DNA of 24,092 bases from Gemmatimonadota bacterium (lineage in GTDB: Bacteria; 4572-55; J002): NCBI GenBank assembly GCA_003697105.1, contig RFFQ01000047.1, positions 1 through 24,092 of the forward strand, in the 5' to 3' direction. A model generated the notes under the pieces. The model was not told where the DNA came from. It saw nothing but the letters and a program-made list of their open reading frames with translations, and did no database searches. Below are positions 5,950-16,751 of this stretch, in pieces. Both the position numbers and the translations under genes were made by a program. Each line of letters begins with the position of its first letter. Position 1 is the stretch's first letter.

Positions 5950-7461
5950 ATGCTCAAATTACGCATCAGCTATAAGATAATTATTGGCGTTGGGTTTATT
6001 ACCAGTGTCGCCATCATCGTATTTTCGTATTTGATTTTACGCTCCCAATGCCAAGGTATGGTATCCCAACTGCGGTTAAGTGGGTATCAGTTGAGTGAAA
6101 CAATCAAAAGTAGTACACGCCATGATATGTTGACCGCCGATCAGGAAAATGTCCACCGCACCATTGACCAAATTGGGATGCAAAAAGGGATCAATAAGGT
6201 TCGTATTTTCAATAAGATCGGCATGATCATGTATTCGTCCGATAAAGATGAAATTAATACGATGGTCGATAAAAACGCCGAAGCGTGTTATGTATGCCAT
6301 GCGGCGGATCAGCCCTTAGAAAAGCTCTCTATCCCGGAACGGACACGAATATTTAAAGGGAATGATGGGCACCGAAGTTTAGGGATTATCAACCCTATTT
6401 ATAACGAGCCTAGTTGTTGGCAGGGGGACTGCCATGCCCACCCGAAAGACCAAAAAGTATTGGGTGTATTGGATATTACCCTGTCATTAGAAGATACGGA
6501 TCGCTTAATTGCTCTAAACCGGAAGCGGATGGTCATTTTCGGAATCGTCGTGCTCACCCTGGTGAGCGTTATATTATGGCGATTGGTTCAAAAATTAGTC
6601 GGTGAGCCGGTGAAAATGTTAGTTGAAGCCACAAAGGTGATTGCCAGTGGAAATCTCAATCACAAAATCAAAATTAATTCTCGTGATGAACTAGGAGACC
6701 TGGCACAGGCATTCAATGTGATGACAGAAAAACTAGTGGAAGCCCAACATCAGGTTTACCAGCAAGATAAGTTGGCGTCATTAGGGCGTTTAGCCGCCGG
6801 TGTGGCACACGAGATCAACAATCCGCTTACCGGAATCCTGACATACAGTAGTTTTTTGCTCAAACGGAGTGAACACTATCCTGAGATTAAAGACGATCTG
6901 GATGTTATTGTGCGGGAAACAAAACGATGCCGGGACATCGTTAAAGGCTTACTCGATTTTGCCCGACAAGTACCTTCCAAAAAAAGCCATCTCAATATTA
7001 ATGACGTCATCTGCCATAGCCTTGATCTGCTGGAAAATCAACTGTTATTGCACCATATCCACGTCGAAAAAGAGCTTAGCCCCACCGTACCGGATATTAT
7101 TGCCGACGCCAATCAGATGGAGCAAGTATTTATCAACCTGATTGTCAACGCGGCAGACGCCATCGGAGAACAAAAAAACGGTGTCCTCCGCATTAAAAGT
7201 GAAGCTCAGATGATCAATTTCCGAAATTATGTGAAAATTGACCTCAGTGATAATGGATGCGGTATGTCCGAAGACCAACTCTCCAAAATTTTTGAGCCTT
7301 TTTATACCACCAAAGGGCAAAAAGGAACAGGCTTAGGACTCGCTGTCGTCTGGGGAATTATGGAAAAACATGGGGGAAAAATCAAGGTTGAAAGCCAACC
7401 GGGGCAGGGCACCACTTTTACCTTGCTTTTTCCCGTCGATGGCGAACAATCATCACTTTGA
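5950..7461 (+). CDS. Membrane sensor histidine kinase with a periplasmic heme c sensor domain
   Basis: A 503-residue two-component sensor. TM1 (about 8-31) and TM2 (about 195-212) enclose a periplasmic domain of about 160 residues. That domain holds a CYVCH heme motif at 113-117 and a second, wider motif CWQGDCH (CX4CH) at 156-162, so it probably carries one or two covalent hemes. A HAMP linker follows (213-265), then the H-box AAGVAHEINNPLTG with phospho-acceptor His287. The ATPase domain has NLIVNAADAI (N box), DNGCGM (G1), FEPFYTTK (F box) and GTGLGLAVV (G2). It is likely to sense redox state or a gas such as NO or O2 in the periplasm. The adjacent response regulators are the obvious partners. 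A promoter lies at 5858. Confidence 0.93.
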   Translation: MLKLRISYKIIIGVGFITSVAIIVFSYLILRSQCQGMVSQLRLSGYQLSETIKSSTRHDMLTADQENVHRTIDQIGMQKGINKVRIFNKIGMIMYSSDKDEINTMVDKNAEACYVCHAADQPLEKLSIPERTRIFKGNDGHRSLGIINPIYNEPSCWQGDCHAHPKDQKVLGVLDITLSLEDTDRLIALNRKRMVIFGIVVLTLVSVILWRLVQKLVGEPVKMLVEATKVIASGNLNHKIKINSRDELGDLAQAFNVMTEKLVEAQHQVYQQDKLASLGRLAAGVAHEINNPLTGILTYSSFLLKRSEHYPEIKDDLDVIVRETKRCRDIVKGLLDFARQVPSKKSHLNINDVICHSLDLLENQLLLHHIHVEKELSPTVPDIIADANQMEQVFINLIVNAADAIGEQKNGVLRIKSEAQMINFRNYVKIDLSDNGCGMSEDQLSKIFEPFYTTKGQKGTGLGLAVVWGIMEKHGGKIKVESQPGQGTTFTLLFPVDGEQSSL

Positions 7462-7485: not shown

Positions 7486-8223
7486 ATGGGAAAACCATAT
7501 GATATACTGATTATAGATGACGAAGAGGTGGTGGTCAATGCCACTATTAAAATTATGAGCCTCGAAGGGTTCACGGTGGATAGCGCCTTGGATGCCAAAA
7601 CCGGTTTGGAAAAATTGGCAACACAGCAATATCGTCTTCTACTTACCGATTTAATGTTGCCCGATATGTCCGGCTATGAAGTTATCACGTACATGAAAGC
7701 AAAGGGAATACAAATTCCGATCATTCTGATTACCGGTTATGCGACACTCGATAATGCGGTTAAAGCCATGAAAATGGGGATTTTTGATTTTATTCCCAAA
7801 CCCTTTGAAATTGAGGAACTGCTAGGTGTAACCCTGAGAGCCTGGCGCGTTCAAGCGGACGATATCCCTGCTGACCCACCGTGTCCCTCGCGGCGCTATT
7901 TGGGCAAACATGCTTGGGTAGATATCGATTCCGACGGTAGGGCGCATATCGGTGCTGCGGCACTCTTCCGAAAAACCGTAGGTACGATCAACCATATTCA
8001 TTTCCCGGCAAGGGGTCAGGAGGTAAAACAAGGCGGGCAGTGTTTAAAATTCCAAACGGATGATACCTATCAGCATACCCTTTGGTCACCGCTCAGTGGT
8101 ATCGTGATCGAGACAAATCATACGATTCAACAGCACCCCACTCGCCTAAAAGATGAAAATCCGTGGCTGGTTCAGCTTCTTCCCAGTAACATGGATGCTG
8201 AAATTAAACATTTGACGTTATGA
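7486..8223 (+). CDS. Response regulator with C-terminal GcvH-like (lipoyl-fold) domain
   Basis: A 245-residue protein starting 24 nt after the kinase. Residues 5-122 are a complete receiver domain: acidic pair Asp11-Asp12, phospho-acceptor Asp55 in LLLTDLMLPD, Thr83, and Lys105 in PKPF. Residues 138-240 resemble glycine cleavage H protein: YLGKHAWVDIDSDG, then a hydrophobic core and WSPLSGIVIETN, matching the H-protein 'HEWV' and 'APVSGEVVEVN' signatures. The lipoyl-lysine region (normally ESVKA) reads QTDDTYQHT, with no lysine, so it cannot be lipoylated in the usual way. There is no helix-turn-helix or enzymatic output domain. The fold could act as a docking or protein-protein module; the function is unknown. 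Confidence 0.88.
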   Translation: MGKPYDILIIDDEEVVVNATIKIMSLEGFTVDSALDAKTGLEKLATQQYRLLLTDLMLPDMSGYEVITYMKAKGIQIPIILITGYATLDNAVKAMKMGIFDFIPKPFEIEELLGVTLRAWRVQADDIPADPPCPSRRYLGKHAWVDIDSDGRAHIGAAALFRKTVGTINHIHFPARGQEVKQGGQCLKFQTDDTYQHTLWSPLSGIVIETNHTIQQHPTRLKDENPWLVQLLPSNMDAEIKHLTL

Positions 8224-8280
8224 CCTGCATCATTGGGATTCATTTATATATACTACATTTTAGTCGTCATGGAGGCTATC

Positions 8281-9405
8281 ATGGTTGCCCTAATTGTCAT
8301 TTTATGTATCGTCGCTTTTATCACGGCGGATGTGCTCATCCGAGTGATACTGCAACGCCTCGCTGAAGCTAAATTACGCAAAGAGCGACAAGCGGCGTTG
8401 GAAACCGGTCTCCGCTTGGATTTTGCCGATGAAGCAAAAACACTGAAACGAGTGGAGGTGACCAACCCCAAAGCGAAAATTTTAGCAGTAGATGATGAAG
8501 AGGTTGTCCTCTCCAGTTTTCGGAAGATTCTAGTGCTTGCCGGATATTCTATTGATACTGTGGAAACCGGTCAGGAAGCTTTGATGCTGGTTCAACATCA
8601 TGATTACGATTTCGTCTTCACCGACCTCAAAATGCCAGAGATGGATGGCGTCGAGGTGGTCAAGGGGGTCAAACACCTCCGCCCAGACATCGATGTGATC
8701 GTCATTACGGGCTACGCCACCATTGAAACCGCCGTCGAAACAATGAAATATGGCGCAATGGACTACGTCCAGAAACCTTTCACCGAAGATGAATTGGTCG
8801 ATTTTGTCAATAAGACCTACATCCGGCGCCAAGACCGGTTGGAACGGCAAATCAAACCGAAAATCCATTTAGTGACACCTACCAGCGGTGAATCTCCTGA
8901 CAAACACACCTTTAATGTCCCCGCCGGTATTTTCATCGCTCCCGAACATACTTGGGTCAGCATCCAGCTCAACGGGATGGCCCGCGTAGGGCTTGATGAT
9001 TTTGCACAAAAAATCATCGGTGAAATTGATGACGTGAAACTCCCGAAAATCGATCAAGTTGTGAAGAAGGGAGAACCCCTGTTTACGATCAAACACCTTT
9101 CTAACTCGATTCAATTTTTTGCCCCGATTAGCGGAAAAGTAACCGCTATCAATACAGAATTGATAAGTGATATTGATGCCATCAAATACAAGCCGTACGC
9201 CGAGGGGTGGATTTGTAACATCGAACCGGAACGGCTAACCGAAGAATTGCCTTCCCTGAAAATTGGTGCAGATGCGCTCGCGTGGTATCAACAGGAAGTC
9301 GATACGTATATCGATTTAGTCAAAAAAATCAGTGATCCGGATGCGTTTTGGACCACAATTTCCAAAATGTTTTTTCAGCCAAAAACGGAGTCGGGAAAGG
9401 AGTGA
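8281..9405 (+). CDS. Membrane-anchored response regulator with GcvH-like domain
   Basis: A 374-residue protein with an N-terminal transmembrane helix (VALIVILCIVAFITADVLIRVIL) and a charged, probably coiled-coil linker (25-60). The receiver domain (66-182) has Asp71-Asp72, phospho-acceptor Asp115 in FVFTDLKMPEMDG, Thr143 and Lys165 (QKPF). A GcvH-like domain follows at about 216-330: FIAPEHTWVSIQLNGMARVG, then FFAPISGKVTAIN and PYAEGWICNIEP, close to H-protein. The lipoyl-lysine position reads as serine (IKHLSNSIQFF). ATG 8281 is chosen because GGAGG (8271-8275) stands 5 nt upstream; the frame extends through ATG 8269 to TTG 8233. Membrane anchoring of a receiver domain is unusual and would place it beside the kinase or the FeS/NrfD complex. 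Confidence 0.88.
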   Translation: MVALIVILCIVAFITADVLIRVILQRLAEAKLRKERQAALETGLRLDFADEAKTLKRVEVTNPKAKILAVDDEEVVLSSFRKILVLAGYSIDTVETGQEALMLVQHHDYDFVFTDLKMPEMDGVEVVKGVKHLRPDIDVIVITGYATIETAVETMKYGAMDYVQKPFTEDELVDFVNKTYIRRQDRLERQIKPKIHLVTPTSGESPDKHTFNVPAGIFIAPEHTWVSIQLNGMARVGLDDFAQKIIGEIDDVKLPKIDQVVKKGEPLFTIKHLSNSIQFFAPISGKVTAINTELISDIDAIKYKPYAEGWICNIEPERLTEELPSLKIGADALAWYQQEVDTYIDLVKKISDPDAFWTTISKMFFQPKTESGKE

Positions 9406-11886: not shown

Positions 11887-12086
11887 AATAAGCGGAGTTG
11901 AAACTCCACTAATTGGAGTGTCAATTTAAGTAGGGTGTGTCGTTCATTTATCCGGCTTTATAATACCTTGTATGCCACACCATCCCTACTTGAAGATTGT
12001 TACGTTCTAGACCGGTCTTTTCCTGCGTTGAACGGTACCTTCAACGTGTTACGTTCTCTCATTTTTCATGTTAAGGAAGGTGAGTC
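11887..12086 (+). promoter_or_regulatory. Structured 5' leader with competing hairpins
   Basis: The leader contains several inverted repeats. GGAGT (11894-11898) and GGAGT (11915-11919) can each pair with the same ACTCC (11903-11907), so the two hairpins exclude each other; the second is extended by TTGA/TCAA. AAGTAGGGTGTG (11928-11939) pairs with CACACCATCCCTACTT (11976-11991) apart from a 4-nt bulge. AGACCGGTCT (12009-12018) is a perfect palindrome. CGTTGAA/TTCAACG (12026-12046) form a 7-bp stem. GTTACGTTCT occurs twice (11999 and 12048). No T-run follows any of them, so translational or stability control is more likely than attenuation. I do not recognise a known riboswitch class. Confidence 0.5.
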
Positions 12087-13436
12087 ATGATCTTTAAACG
12101 TACGATTTTGTTCGTGGCTGTGATGGCATTAACCCTGTTCATCTGGCTTTCCGGATGTACGGATAAGTATCCTACGGAAGAGGAAAAACAAGATCAGGTC
12201 GCGATGTCCAGTTGTACGACGTGCCACTTGAATGAAACGGTGCTCAAGGAGTTCGTTGGTAGTGATTTAGTACCTCCTCCCGGTTCTGGCGAAGGCTGAG
12301 GTGGTTCAGTGTCGGGGGTCCCGGCATGGAAGACAATTTTTGTGAATGCTGACTTTTTGGAAACCGTGCATGGCAGTATGGCGTGTGAAGACTGTCACGC
12401 CGGTAATCCAAAGAGCTTCACTCTGGAAGGCGCCCACGAAGGGCTGATCGCCCTGCCCAGTGAAAATGCCGTGGCGAGTTGCGGTGGCTGTCACGCTGAT
12501 GTGACCGAGAAGTTTGCCACCAGCTTGCATTATAACCAAGAAGGTTATTTTCACTGGTTTGAGGAACGAGCCGGTTACGACCTGGCAAGTGATGCCCACA
12601 AATTACAGGAATTTGGCGCAGAATGCGGTAGCTGCCATACCTCCTGCGGGGATTGCCATATCGGACGTCCCAAATCGAATGGCGGCGGGTTAGGCAATGG
12701 CGGCCATCTGTTTCAGGGGACGCCAAGCATGACCGACAACTGTACCGCCTGCCACGGCTCACGCGTGGGTGAAGAGTACACCGGTGCGCATACCAGTCAA
12801 GGCATTAAAGCGGATGTGCATTACATCCCCAATGCCAAACGGTGCGAATTCTGCCACAGCGGGGCGGAAATGCACGGTGACGGCAATATCTATGTGGATC
12901 GCTATGATGCGGATATGGTACATGCCGTTAAGTGCGAGGATTGCCATGAGTCAGCGCGTAATGCCAACTTTTACCACACCGTGCACTGGGCAGGTGGAGA
13001 GTCCAGTGGTAATAAGTTGCAATGCCAGGTTTGCCATTCCCAGTCCTACAAGAACTGTAACGGCTGCCATGTGGGTGGCGATGGTATCACTGGTTCATCC
13101 TATCTGACCTTTGAAATTGGTCGGAATTATATGAAGAGTGAACGCCATGATTTTGATTACATGGTAGTTCGCCATATCCCAATTGCACCGGATACCTACG
13201 CCGAATGGGGGGAATCGGATTTAGCCAACTATACGGCACATCCCACGTGGAAGCTCGCTACACCGCATAATATCCAGCGGTGGACCGAACAAACCACGGT
13301 TGAAGAAGGCGAATCCTGCGGCAGTTCCTGCCATGATAGTGACATTTATCTGCGCGAAAGTGACATCGAGCTGTATAACGCCAGCGGTTACGAAGAACTG
13401 GAACGCATCGCCAACCAACCGGTGTTTATGGATTAG
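12087..13436 (+). CDS. Undecaheme cytochrome c lipoprotein interrupted by one in-frame UGA (candidate selenoprotein)
   Basis: A continuous frame of 450 codons broken only by TGA at codon 71 (12297-12299). The 5' part (12087-12299) supplies a lipoprotein signal peptide with lipobox LSGC (Cys24) and heme motif CTTCH (43-47). The 3' part (12309-13436 if started at GTG) has no signal peptide or ribosome binding site. It carries CEDCH, CGGCH, CGSCH, CGDCH, CTACH, CEFCH, CEDCH, CQVCH, CNGCH and a CX3CH motif (CGSSCH). A periplasmic cytochrome cannot mature without export, so the halves belong together: 11 heme sites in a 449-residue lipoprotein. The UGA sits in GEG-UGA-GGS with a SECIS-like hairpin directly after. 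Alternatives are a recent GGA-to-TGA nonsense mutation or a sequencing error. A promoter and structured leader precede it; a terminator follows. Confidence 0.8.
12297..12331 (+). promoter_or_regulatory. In-frame UGA codon and SECIS-like hairpin
   Basis: UGA at 12297-12299. A core stem of 7 bp, TGTCGGG (12310-12316) with CCCGGCA (12320-12326), closes a GGT loop at 12317-12319. It extends downward through G-T, an A/G mismatch, then C-G, T-A and T-A to 12305/12331. The loop begins 17 nt after the UGA and contains G then U, features described for bacterial SECIS elements. No bulged U like that of E. coli fdhF is evident. Confidence 0.5.
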
Positions 13437-13564: not shown

Positions 13565-14602
13565 ATGTTGTCCAAAAAATTATTTCTGGTGCTAATATTA
13601 ACGTTTACGCTAAGCATGTTTATGTTGGGGTGTGATGATGATGACAATGGGAGTGGCGATACCGTCGATGAAACGGCACTGCTGTTAGCCGCCGGTGATG
13701 CCTATTTTGGTAGCTACCTGACCACTGCTGGGGAAAGCCCCAACATCTCCATCACAGAACTCTACGGGTTGCTCACGGATACCGATACCACAAATGATCC
13801 GTATCTTCTGGATTTTCGTTCGGAAAGCGATTTTAACGCGGGGCATATCAACGGGGCGGTGCACATGTCTTTGTCAGAATTACCGGACGCCGTGGATACA
13901 TTGCCGACAGACAAAACGATTGTTACGATCTGCTATATGGGGCAAACCGCCAGCCACGCGGCGGCATTTATCAATTTGATTGCCCAAGACCCAGACTATT
14001 CCGGCTTACATGCGCGTAATTTACTGTTTGGGATGAGTGCGGTCGGTACGCCATCCGGACCGTACATCCAGAATTGGGTCAATACCATTGCCACGGATGA
14101 ATGGGTTGATCAATTGGAGACCACTCCCCACACCGCAACCCAAACCTATGATCTGCCGACCATCAATACGGGGGAAAACACCCTGGCAGAAATTCTGAAA
14201 GCACGTTGGACGGAATATCTGACAAGCAATGGGAATTGGGCAAACCTGACCAACACCGCAGACGTTTTTGTAAACAATAGTAATTATTTTATTATCAACT
14301 ATTGGCCCCAAAGTGAGTATGAAAATCCGGGACACATTCCAGGTGCCTATTGCTTTCCACCCAAAACGTCAATCCAATCGGATGCGGATCTGAACAAACT
14401 GCCATTGGATCAAGACATTATTGTTTATTGCTACACAGGACAAACATCTGCCCAATTAGCGGCATATCTGCGGTTATTGGGCTACAAAGCCTGGAGTCTG
14501 GCATGGGGCGTCAATGGGTTTGCCTATCATGCCTTAGATGGCATTGGGCACCAATACAGTCCTCCGGTAGATGACCATTCTGCCATTTTGTGGACACCTT
14601 AA
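13565..14602 (+). CDS. Tandem-rhodanese lipoprotein
   Basis: A 345-residue protein with a lipoprotein signal (lipobox MLGC, Cys23) followed by CDDDDNGSG; an Asp at +2 could influence membrane sorting. Two rhodanese domains follow. The first has LLDFRSESDFNAGHINGAVH and active-site loop CYMGQTA at Cys123. The second has WPQSEYENPGHIPGA and loop CYTGQTS at Cys289. Both keep the catalytic cysteine, so both could carry persulfide. Rhodaneses transfer sulfane sulfur, which would fit sulfur handling in the periplasm, although the acceptor is unknown. Start ATG has AGGAGG just upstream. The gene sits between two terminators, so it may have its own promoter, but I cannot point to one. Confidence 0.9.
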   Translation: MLSKKLFLVLILTFTLSMFMLGCDDDDNGSGDTVDETALLLAAGDAYFGSYLTTAGESPNISITELYGLLTDTDTTNDPYLLDFRSESDFNAGHINGAVHMSLSELPDAVDTLPTDKTIVTICYMGQTASHAAAFINLIAQDPDYSGLHARNLLFGMSAVGTPSGPYIQNWVNTIATDEWVDQLETTPHTATQTYDLPTINTGENTLAEILKARWTEYLTSNGNWANLTNTADVFVNNSNYFIINYWPQSEYENPGHIPGAYCFPPKTSIQSDADLNKLPLDQDIIVYCYTGQTSAQLAAYLRLLGYKAWSLAWGVNGFAYHALDGIGHQYSPPVDDHSAILWTP

Positions 14603-14668: not shown

Positions 14669-15871
14669 ATGATGAAAAAGATTATCAGTTTGATATGCCT
14701 GTTGTTGATAGTTGGTCTTTGGACTCAAGGCTGGAGCCAAACGTGGGAAACACGCGGGAAACTTACGACTGCGATTTACGCGTTTGAAGATTCGATTCAG
14801 CACCAGCGGGTTTACGAAACTGTACGGTTTGAAGCAAAACATGACAAATTCCGGTTTAACTTTGCCGGACGTGCCATGATGGATATGAATTCCGACGATG
14901 AAACCGACGATGAGCGGTTGCTCAAGGCGCACAGTGCCTCTATTTCGGGGGATGGGCTGTTCAATGGTCTGTTGGATTTCACGGTGGGACGGCAGTTTTT
15001 GCACCCCGGCTTGGTGTTTGGCAGTCTGGATGGGGTGAATCTGGTTTGGCATCCCATGGAAAAGTTGGATTGGCAGATGTACGGTGGGGTAGAAAGCCAC
15101 CTCTACCGGAGCTTTAAAATCTACAACAGTGATGATGCCACCGTTTACGGAACTGCCCTGCGCTACCGTGATGTGTTCAACTCCACCATTCAATTGGTCT
15201 ATTTCAATAAAAGTACCGCGGATGAAACCCAATGGGAAATCGCCGGAGTGAATCTCAATAATCGCTCTCTGTCGTGGTTGAATCTCTCATTGCAAGCCCA
15301 TAACGATCTGGTCAATGAGCGCCTACACCGGTTGTACGGGCAAGTCCGTCTCATCCCCTCAGAGCGCTACAATCTGGTTTTCCGGTACAAACAGCAATAC
15401 CCGCAAGTTTACGGGGATTCATTCTTTAAAATTTTTGATATTAAACAATATGAGCAACTGAGTTTTGGCGCAAATTACTTTATCACCGCTAAATACGCGC
15501 TCATGGCGGATTATCAGATGGTCAGTTTAGCTGATGGGGAAGGCAATGCCAATCGATTGTATATCACCCTTAGTGATTTGAACGGGTCAATCGGGTTCAT
15601 CTATGAAAGCGGGGATTTGGGTGATGAAACGGGATTTTTGTTTGATTATGGCTATGATGTCACGGAGAAGTTAACCGTATCCGCGAGTGTGGACTTCTCG
15701 CGGTATCGTCTGGAAGAGGTTTATGATTACGAACGCCAAGTTGGAAATGCGTTTAAGCTGGCGTATAAATTCAGCAACAATCTGCGGGCAGATGTCGAAT
15801 ATCAATTTTTGAACAATTATGTGAAATACGAAGACCATCGACTTTTAGCTCACATCCATTTTATGTGGTAA
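14669..15871 (+). CDS. Outer-membrane beta-barrel (porin-like) protein
   Basis: A 400-residue protein with a Sec signal peptide (MMKKIISLICLLLIVGLWTQGWS) and otherwise alternating polar/hydrophobic strands rich in Tyr, Phe and Trp, such as VRFEAKHDKFRFNFAGRAMM, YNLVFRYKQQYPQVYG and LRADVEYQFLNNYV. The last residues are HIHFMW, an aromatic end typical of barrels folded by the BAM machinery. It contains no CXXCH. I cannot assign it to a named porin family. It is followed 13 nt later by an 11-heme periplasmic cytochrome and then a membrane cytochrome; in porin-cytochrome conduits such as MtrAB or Omb/Oma-Omc, a barrel surrounds a multiheme protein to carry electrons through the outer membrane. 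That role here is inference. Confidence 0.82.
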   Translation: MMKKIISLICLLLIVGLWTQGWSQTWETRGKLTTAIYAFEDSIQHQRVYETVRFEAKHDKFRFNFAGRAMMDMNSDDETDDERLLKAHSASISGDGLFNGLLDFTVGRQFLHPGLVFGSLDGVNLVWHPMEKLDWQMYGGVESHLYRSFKIYNSDDATVYGTALRYRDVFNSTIQLVYFNKSTADETQWEIAGVNLNNRSLSWLNLSLQAHNDLVNERLHRLYGQVRLIPSERYNLVFRYKQQYPQVYGDSFFKIFDIKQYEQLSFGANYFITAKYALMADYQMVSLADGEGNANRLYITLSDLNGSIGFIYESGDLGDETGFLFDYGYDVTEKLTVSASVDFSRYRLEEVYDYERQVGNAFKLAYKFSNNLRADVEYQFLNNYVKYEDHRLLAHIHFMW

Positions 15872-15884
15872 AGAAGGTGAACCC

Positions 15885-16751
15885 ATGAAAAAACTTATCT
15901 ATCTTGGAATTTGTGTCCTTTGGGGGATGGGGAGTGTGGCTGCCGCTACCGAAGCCTCGTTTTCACATAAGCTCCATACCGGCATGGGGTTAGGTTGTGA
16001 GACGTGTCATGATGCCGCCTTCACTAGCGAAACATCTGCAGATGATCTCATTCCCAATTTTGATGAGGTCTGCTTGATGTGCCATGAAGCCAGCGATATT
16101 GCAAAAACCCAATTTGAGCCTGTTGCCTTCAAAGCCGATTTCCCGCATAAGAGTCACGCCACCAGCGCAGAGGATTGCATGACCTGCCACCAAGGAATTG
16201 ACCAAAAAGAGGCGACAGATGGCACATATCATCTGCCAACAGGGCAAACGTGCAACGGTTGCCATGCCGGTGCCGACGTTGCCGAGCAAAAAGATGATTG
16301 TTACCAATGCCATAATCTGGAGATGGTGCTGATGCCAGCAAATCACACTGTTGGTTGGAAAAATGGGCACGGTATGACCGTCCACATGGAGACCGCGGCC
16401 TCCTGCGGACACTGCCATAATACCGAAACCTATTGCACCAATTGTCATCAGGGAGATAATCTGGATGCCACAGTTCATCCACTAAATTACCGCAAAACAC
16501 ACGGGATTCGTGCCAAAGGGAATCAGGATAATTGCCAAACGTGCCATCAGGAACAAGCCTTTTGTGTGGATTGTCATCGCTCGGAAATGGTTATCCCCTC
16601 CAACCATACGTACGCTAACTGGGTTAGTGCTGAAGGTGGGCGTCATGCTAAATCGGCACAGTATGACCTCGATAGGTGTATGAGTTGCCATAACGATGCC
16701 TACACCGAATCCGTTTGTATGGGATGTCATGCCACACCATCAGAGGATTAA
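15885..16751 (+). CDS. Periplasmic 11-heme cytochrome c
   Basis: A 288-residue protein with a cleavable signal peptide (ending GMGSVAAA) and eleven CXXCH motifs: CETCH, CLMCH, CMTCH, CNGCH, CYQCH, CGHCH, CTNCH, CQTCH, CVDCH, CMSCH, CMGCH. There is one heme per 26 residues. FSHKLH and FPHKSH are distal-ligand motifs like those of c7/c3 cytochromes, and extra histidines are plentiful (ANHTVGWKNGHG, SNHTYANW), consistent with bis-His coordination. The fold looks like a chain of c7-type units suited to long-distance transfer. It lies between the barrel gene and the membrane 19-heme cytochrome, with gaps of 13 and 15 nt, and is the natural periplasmic link between them. Confidence 0.9.
   Translation: MKKLIYLGICVLWGMGSVAAATEASFSHKLHTGMGLGCETCHDAAFTSETSADDLIPNFDEVCLMCHEASDIAKTQFEPVAFKADFPHKSHATSAEDCMTCHQGIDQKEATDGTYHLPTGQTCNGCHAGADVAEQKDDCYQCHNLEMVLMPANHTVGWKNGHGMTVHMETAASCGHCHNTETYCTNCHQGDNLDATVHPLNYRKTHGIRAKGNQDNCQTCHQEQAFCVDCHRSEMVIPSNHTYANWVSAEGGRHAKSAQYDLDRCMSCHNDAYTESVCMGCHATPSED

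Follow-up and report, generated by a model that had tools for sequence, protein, structure and literature searches.

Multiheme c-type cytochromes that contain selenocysteine (Sec) are a known kind of protein: one was predicted in Geobacter in 2007 (Fujita et al., PMC1914089) and is named ExtKL (PMC5877670, PMC6148476). ExtKL, or MccSep (NF040886; GSU2937-2936; PDB 9wt8, 9wta-9wtc), is an exported multiheme cytochrome with one UGA-encoded Sec; five hemes are followed by a C-terminal non-heme domain that holds Sec in the motif AGHxIPDG-U-P, and the cluster in which the gene lies in Geobacter also encodes a porin-like protein and a lipoprotein of the rhodanese type. The PDB entry 9wt8 and its relatives (MccSep, U325A) match, with an E-value of about 1e-204, a protein that scores above the ExtKL cut-off. 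Loss of extI impairs selenite/tellurite reduction, and the ext cluster has been linked to selenite/tellurite, not to sulfur (PMC5877670). Another cytochrome of the selenite/tellurite reduction operon is ExtM (NF040943).

The octaheme tetrathionate reductase (OTR) family (TIGR04315; PDB 1SP3), with eight hemes, includes Sec forms with the motif NNF-U-I. The OTRs of Desulfobacterota often have one in-frame TGA, NNF-U-I..SNWC, between hemes 1 and 2 (loci L148, L151, L154, L155, L157, L159-L163, L165 and L167), and the OTR of L146 has NNFC, so that a Sec/Cys pair is found in the OTR family as well. Both Sec-OTR and ExtKL are included among the 119 prokaryotic selenoprotein families of a 2026 review (PMC13188914). 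A functional precedent of interest here is SoxY, in which the Cys of a C-terminal GGCGG carries sulfur substrates (PMC6067878).

The locus described here comes from a 24,092-nucleotide stretch of DNA of a Gemmatimonadota bacterium (contig RFFQ01000047.1, hereafter the window) and encodes a cytochrome of a different architecture, which is absent from the 119 families of the 2026 review (PMC13188914). A literature search that included Caldithrix found nothing on this gene, and none of the papers searched uses the term "selenocytochrome". The original prediction, made from the sequence alone, of a candidate selenocytochrome stands with respect to Sec, but a Sec-containing multiheme cytochrome is a kind known since the 2007 description of ExtKL; this particular family, its Sec-bearing arm and its near-obligate pairing with a rhodanese appear to be undescribed in the literature and databases searched.

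The cytochrome gene and its in-frame UGA

The features of the locus are collected in Table 1. Judging from the sequence, what looks like a broken cytochrome gene is very probably intact, with its stop codon read as Sec. Translation of positions 12087-13436 with TGA as U yields a single frame of 449 residues with exactly one in-frame UGA. This re-translation reproduces, with correct coordinates, the predicted order of a lipoprotein signal, a first heme, the UGA at 12297 and ten further hemes; the single CX3CH motif is C411-H416, and the other ten hemes are of the CXXCH type. The 3' part had been said to lack an export signal, and indeed the ORF that starts at GTG 12309 has no signal peptide when taken alone. 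The predicted product of the joined frame is an exported, lipid-anchored cytochrome whose 11 heme motifs can be counted directly. The distance from heme 1 to Sec is 25-31 residues in relatives, with one outlier of 42, and only about nine non-motif histidines are conserved in the family alignment, compared with 11 hemes.

Table 1. Features of the cytochrome locus, in positions of the window
Positions	Strand	Feature	Basis or detail
12073..12080	+	Shine-Dalgarno-like AAGGAAGG before the 5' ATG	sequence
12087..13436	+	gene of the 11-heme c-type cytochrome lipoprotein	449 aa with one UGA read as predicted Sec; stop TAG
12147..12158	+	lipobox L-S-G-C (Cys24)	sequence; Cys nearly invariant in 77 relatives
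12213..12227	+	heme motif 1, CTTCH (C43)	28 residues N-terminal of Sec
12297..12299	+	in-frame UGA, residue 71 (predicted Sec), GEG-U-GGS	translation with TGA=U; homologues
12305..12331	+	SECIS-like hairpin: 8-bp stem 12309-12316/12320-12327, GGU loop 12317-12319, 3-bp outer stem	folding
12384..13334	+	ten later heme motifs (CXXCH in nine cases, CX3CH in one)	motif reading; the greater part (model residues 89-426) aligns with OTR
13565..14602	+	exported tandem-rhodanese lipoprotein, active-site Cys in both domains (CYMGQTA, CYTGQTS)	sequence, domain matches
14669..15871	+	predicted outer-membrane beta-barrel (porin-like)	fold from sequence; no Pfam match
15885..16751	+	c7/c3-type multiheme cytochrome	domain matches; gene order

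Predicted Sec decoding and conservation of the UGA site

A search of the genome for selA, selB, selC and selD finds all four, above the respective family cut-offs: selA (L027), selB (L001), a tRNA-Sec with the anticodon tca (L110) and selD (L118). An in-frame UGA is also found in selD (ACAG-U-ASK), at the position known to hold Sec in SelD proteins, and provides the genome with another Sec codon independent of the first. In a set of 50 genomes with the cytochrome, SelB, counted only when above cut-off, is present in 28 of the 30 genomes with the UGA form as opposed to 4 of the 20 with a Cys or EIR form (Fisher p = 1.2e-7); the two UGA-type hosts (those of L045 and L093) show no SelB above cut-off, possibly because these MAGs are incomplete.

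The first protein search covered 60 other genomes, with the closest relative at 52% identity; five relatives have one TGA and a sixth gene has a TGA in its second matched piece, all six at the same place as the UGA of the window. When the genomes of about 85,000 species were scanned, 559 relatives were identified, the best 80 of which were read and, together with the gene of the window and four others, make up a set of 85 genes. Most members come from MAGs, and phylum labels are not always reliable. The column of residue 71 contains UGA in 65 genes, Cys (TGC or TGT) in 18 and the replacement EIR in two near-identical genes (L043 and L076), proportions that pertain to the best 80 of the 559 relatives and may differ in distant members. 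Gly, the residue expected if the UGA were a mutated GGA, occurs at this position in none of the 85 genes. The motif G-U/C-G-G is found in all UGA and Cys genes but one, with G at each of the positions -1, +1 and +2 in 82 of 83; several Cys members read GGCGG, and GxGCGG is also present among them. Of the stop codons, only UGA is used at the site, never UAA or UAG.

Selenoproteins are classically recognized by homologues from other lineages that have Cys in place of Sec. In a maximum likelihood tree inferred with residue 71 masked, Cys arises in two places, namely, in a Bacteroidota/Ignavibacteria/Chlorobi group that mostly lacks SelB and in the pair L033/L037, which is nested inside a UGA clade. 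Given the UGA and Cys homologues, the sel genes and the covarying hairpin described below, the support for the predicted Sec at residue 71 is as strong as sequence data allow; all of the originally proposed checks that could be run favor Sec at UGA 12297, and the Cys members indicate that the site is a chalcogen site that is not uniquely occupied by Sec.

Several relatives depart from the common pattern. The two EIR genes (L043, 4916-6214, and L076, 8004-9302) have no rhodanese gene nearby, probably a joint loss of the arm function and its partner. A relative in genome G021, which appears to be divided between two contig ends (L023/L015), has no Gly-rich arm and reads APSINTADFLVTQGFF between heme 1 and heme 2. 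The proteins of L083, L094 and L103 are nearly identical and carry three phylum labels, and L033, assigned to an "Actinomycetota" bin, falls within a KSB1/Calditrichota clade; the labels or bins of these MAGs look wrong.

The SECIS-like hairpin

The original prediction included a GC-rich hairpin with a GGU loop that begins a few bases 3' of the UGA, and folding, an excess over recoded sequences and compensatory changes all agree with this element. In the window, the hairpin has a folding z-score of -2.0 relative to shuffled sequences. When amino acids were kept fixed, synonymous codons redrawn and pairs counted in 1000 simulations, the gene of the window formed 7 of 7 core pairs compared with 3.3 expected (P = 0.001). 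The UGA genes have a mean of 5.37 of 7 pairs compared with 3.56 expected (Wilcoxon 6e-11, a pooled value that is only indicative because related sequences are not independent), and their total of 349 pairs exceeds that in every one of the 1000 simulations (maximum 255). The Cys genes, with 2.89 pairs compared with 2.61 expected under the same recoding, have no significant excess.

Counting from the U of UGA, 45 of the 65 UGA genes share the register i+j = 44 with the loop at +18; in 13 of the 65, the best hairpin lies a few bases 3', in register 50, and the remainder are in between, so that the form of the SECIS is not uniform. Among the register-44 genes, the pair 16-28 is C-G, G-C or U-G, and the pairs 19-25, 18-26, 17-27 and 15-29 vary on both sides, yet are paired in 44-45 of 45. 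In L093, where GGEVEAVPPW replaces the usual GGSVPPLEAW, the stem is kept with its pairs reversed. The Cys member L033 retains an 8-bp hairpin, which is probably a fossil of a recent loss of Sec. No Rfam family matches the hairpin stretch, and the SECIS assignment therefore rests on covariation and the synonymous-recoding tests, which indicate that in UGA members the hairpin is kept by compensatory changes and exceeds what synonymous codon choice would produce.

Family affiliation and predicted fold

Searches of NCBIfam, Pfam and PHROGs for a family of the window protein returned only generic matches to cytochrome c7/c3 and MtrC-like domains. The ExtKL/MccSep profile NF040886 (cut-off 250 bits) fails to match the window protein at E-values up to 10 or any of the 77 aligned members at 1e-3. 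A profile comparison with ExtKL (probability 93, 185 columns) aligned only the signal and heme motifs, not the Sec sites, and was not read as membership. No match among the 77 members was found for NF049953 (GUxG) or for the remaining selenoproteins of the 2026 table whose short motifs are comparable. ExtM (NF040943) is weakly matched by 46 of the 77, with a best E-value of 7e-13; the best score, about 48 bits, does not approach the 800-bit cut-off; the Sec arm was not seen in the one ExtM-like ORF that was read (L143). TIGR04315 is matched by 1 of the 77 members, with an E-value of 2.8e-4, far under its cut-off of 375 bits.

An hmmsearch of PDB sequences with the family profile gives 1sp3 as the top match (E-value 1.4e-4). 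An AlphaFold model built from the 77-row alignment has a mean pLDDT of 89.5, with lower values of about 66-76 in the arm region. Foldseek yields nothing significant for this model in PDB; when Foldseek candidates were aligned with VIA-align, 1SP3 took the top rank with Z 8.6, compared with 3.4 for the next row, and an rmsd of 4.4 across 265 residues (model 89-426). These results are moderate evidence that the protein consists of an OTR/ExtM-like core to which an N-terminal heme and the Sec arm have been added. The moderate similarity to OTR in sequence and predicted core fold is accompanied by differences, i.e., 11 hemes instead of eight, and the extra N-terminal heme with its arm. Compared with ExtKL, Sec lies on a Gly-rich arm that follows the first of 11 hemes, and the two Sec sites do not align. 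By its Sec site and heme plan, the family is, at the sequence level, distinct from both ExtKL/MccSep and Sec-OTR, and it falls short of every NCBIfam cut-off.

The probable rhodanese partner and genomic neighborhood

A profile built from the rhodanese lipoprotein of the window (13565-14602) was run on the 85 loci and detects a rhodanese on the same strand in 81, downstream of the cytochrome in 74 and upstream in 7. The rhodanese lies within 1.5 kb in 80 loci, and in the 81st (L094) it overlaps one unbroken frame. It is absent from four loci: L083, where the contig ends, L100, which is cut on the upstream side, and the two with EIR genes. The porin-like gene and the c7-type cytochrome stand beside the cytochrome/rhodanese pair in the same order in a subset of relatives. 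The UGA arrangement, almost always with a rhodanese gene as neighbor, is found again and again in bacteria of many phyla, most of them uncultured.

Elsewhere in the window lie two modules of the NrfD/Fe-S type, which are polysulfide-reductase-like, along with several additional multiheme cytochromes. It also encodes two proteins (7486-8223 and 8233-9405) in which response-regulator receivers are fused to GCV_H domains, with no lipoyl lysine visible by eye, beside a histidine kinase. The union of a carrier-protein fold with signaling is unusual; in other systems, LbpA proteins, which are GcvH-like, take part in sulfur oxidation. The sensor part of a histidine kinase at 5950-7461 contains the heme-like motifs CYVCH and CWQGDCH and is possibly a c-heme redox sensor for the cluster.

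Proposed function and alternatives

The Sec, its arm, the heme count and the pairing with the rhodanese are established at the level of comparative sequence analysis, and the partnership of the two proteins is indicated by genome adjacency; the OTR-like fold match is moderate. It is highly likely that the gene encodes a Sec cytochrome with a functional rhodanese partner, the detailed chemistry being a separate matter. UGA 12297 is very probably decoded as Sec by the SelA, SelB, tRNA-Sec and SelD of the genome itself, directed by the downstream hairpin, which places Sec71 (Cys in some relatives) in the GxG-U-GG segment, a flexible arm rich in Gly that separates heme 1 from the OTR/ExtM-like core. 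In the proposed mechanism, the cytochrome would work with the adjoining tandem-rhodanese lipoprotein: the rhodanese would load sulfane sulfur from polysulfide, thiosulfate or a Se/Te analogue, the arm would receive it as a selenosulfide or persulfide and offer it to the heme chain for reduction to sulfide or selenide or, in the reverse direction, sulfide would be oxidized. Electrons would travel by way of the heme chain and neighboring cytochromes, to or from either the cell exterior or the NrfD/Fe-S membrane modules of the cluster.

A carrier arm for sulfur or selenium fits because a Sec/Cys on a flexible Gly loop is combined with a sulfur-transfer neighbor and eleven hemes. The nearest functional precedent is SoxY, given that its GGCGG Cys carries sulfur and that several Cys members of the present family read GGCGG. 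The analogy pertains to a Cys/Sec between glycines as a proposed sulfur carrier; the arm of SoxY is C-terminal, whereas here an internal loop is joined to a cytochrome, and the likeness is one of motif. For rhodanese-fed sulfane chemistry on the arm, a proposal in its chemistry, substrate and direction alike, the chances appear to be slightly short of even. Still more tentative is the most far-reaching form of the proposal, a fused counterpart of SoxY and of rhodanese/polysulfide-reductase systems, in which a Sec swinging arm in the cytochrome takes sulfane sulfur or selenium from the rhodanese and couples its reduction or oxidation directly to the heme wire as a widespread, undescribed respiratory module. 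The observations that weigh against the Sec cytochrome with a rhodanese partner include the EIR genes, which lack Sec and Cys, the G021 relative, which lacks the arm, and the two UGA-type hosts with no SelB above cut-off.

The substrate could instead be selenite/tellurite (or Fe/Mn minerals), with the rhodanese engaged in selenium handling, as proposed for the Geobacter extHIJKL. In the ext cluster, too, a Sec cytochrome accompanies a rhodanese lipoprotein and a porin (PMC5877670), the rhodanese profile finds an ExtH-like ORF in an ext cluster (E-value 5e-12), and there are the weak matches to ExtM. The Sec cytochromes of the two systems, however, are not orthologous and differ in their Sec sites; the porin profile detects no similarity among the ORFs of the ext clusters examined, and genes for selenite reduction would rarely be kept as a main respiration across so many lineages. 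This substrate is a serious contender, although on balance rather unlikely.

A slightly less probable alternative is that Sec/Cys71 serves as a ligand of heme iron or another metal, or as a structural or redox-sensing residue of an electron conduit, with the rhodanese as a mere maturation or repair factor. Such a role would be compatible with the replacement of Sec by Cys, the location of the residue between heme motifs and the shortage of conserved non-motif histidines; the flanking glycines and the lower pLDDT suggest a mobile arm, not a fixed ligand, and the rhodanese is gone where the residue is gone (L043/L076), a single evolutionary case.

That UGA is a true stop between two proteins of a conserved operon, a one-heme lipoprotein and a downstream 10-heme protein, as raised for ExtKL by Fujita et al. 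2007 (PMC1914089), is very improbable here: the Cys versions are one uninterrupted protein across the same site, the 3' ORF lacks an export signal, yet its hemes need periplasmic attachment; of the stop codons only UGA is used; and SelB co-occurs. The plain alternatives of the original prediction, a nonsense mutation or sequencing error that turned GGA or TGC/TGT into a stop in a pseudogene or misread gene, would require a single base change in a MAG-type assembly of 199 contigs but have a negligible chance and are in practice excluded for the family, because the same UGA column recurs in 65 genes (that of the window included) from dozens of independently sequenced genomes, e.g., as exactly one TGA in 12 of 12 clear members of the even Chloroflexota sample, some on multi-megabase contigs, and is accompanied by a position-specific covarying RNA hairpin.

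Implications

The Sec cytochrome with its rhodanese partner adds an apparent selenoprotein family to the 2026 inventory of 119 prokaryotic families (PMC13188914), from which it is missing. Annotation of UGA as a stop splits or mis-calls the gene, which is thus easily missed in many uncultured phyla. The nested Sec-to-Cys replacement in L033, with its surviving hairpin, is probably a clear-cut example of Sec lost recently. Counting ExtKL and Sec-OTR, three different types of multiheme cytochromes appear to use Sec, and in two of the three an exported rhodanese is encoded alongside. This suggests a common heme-wire chemistry of sulfane sulfur or selenium, which is directly testable because there are Cys versions that E. 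coli could express. As far as comparative genomics can indicate, these observations point to an enzyme family, so far undescribed, that contains selenium, wires electrons and acts on sulfur (or selenium).
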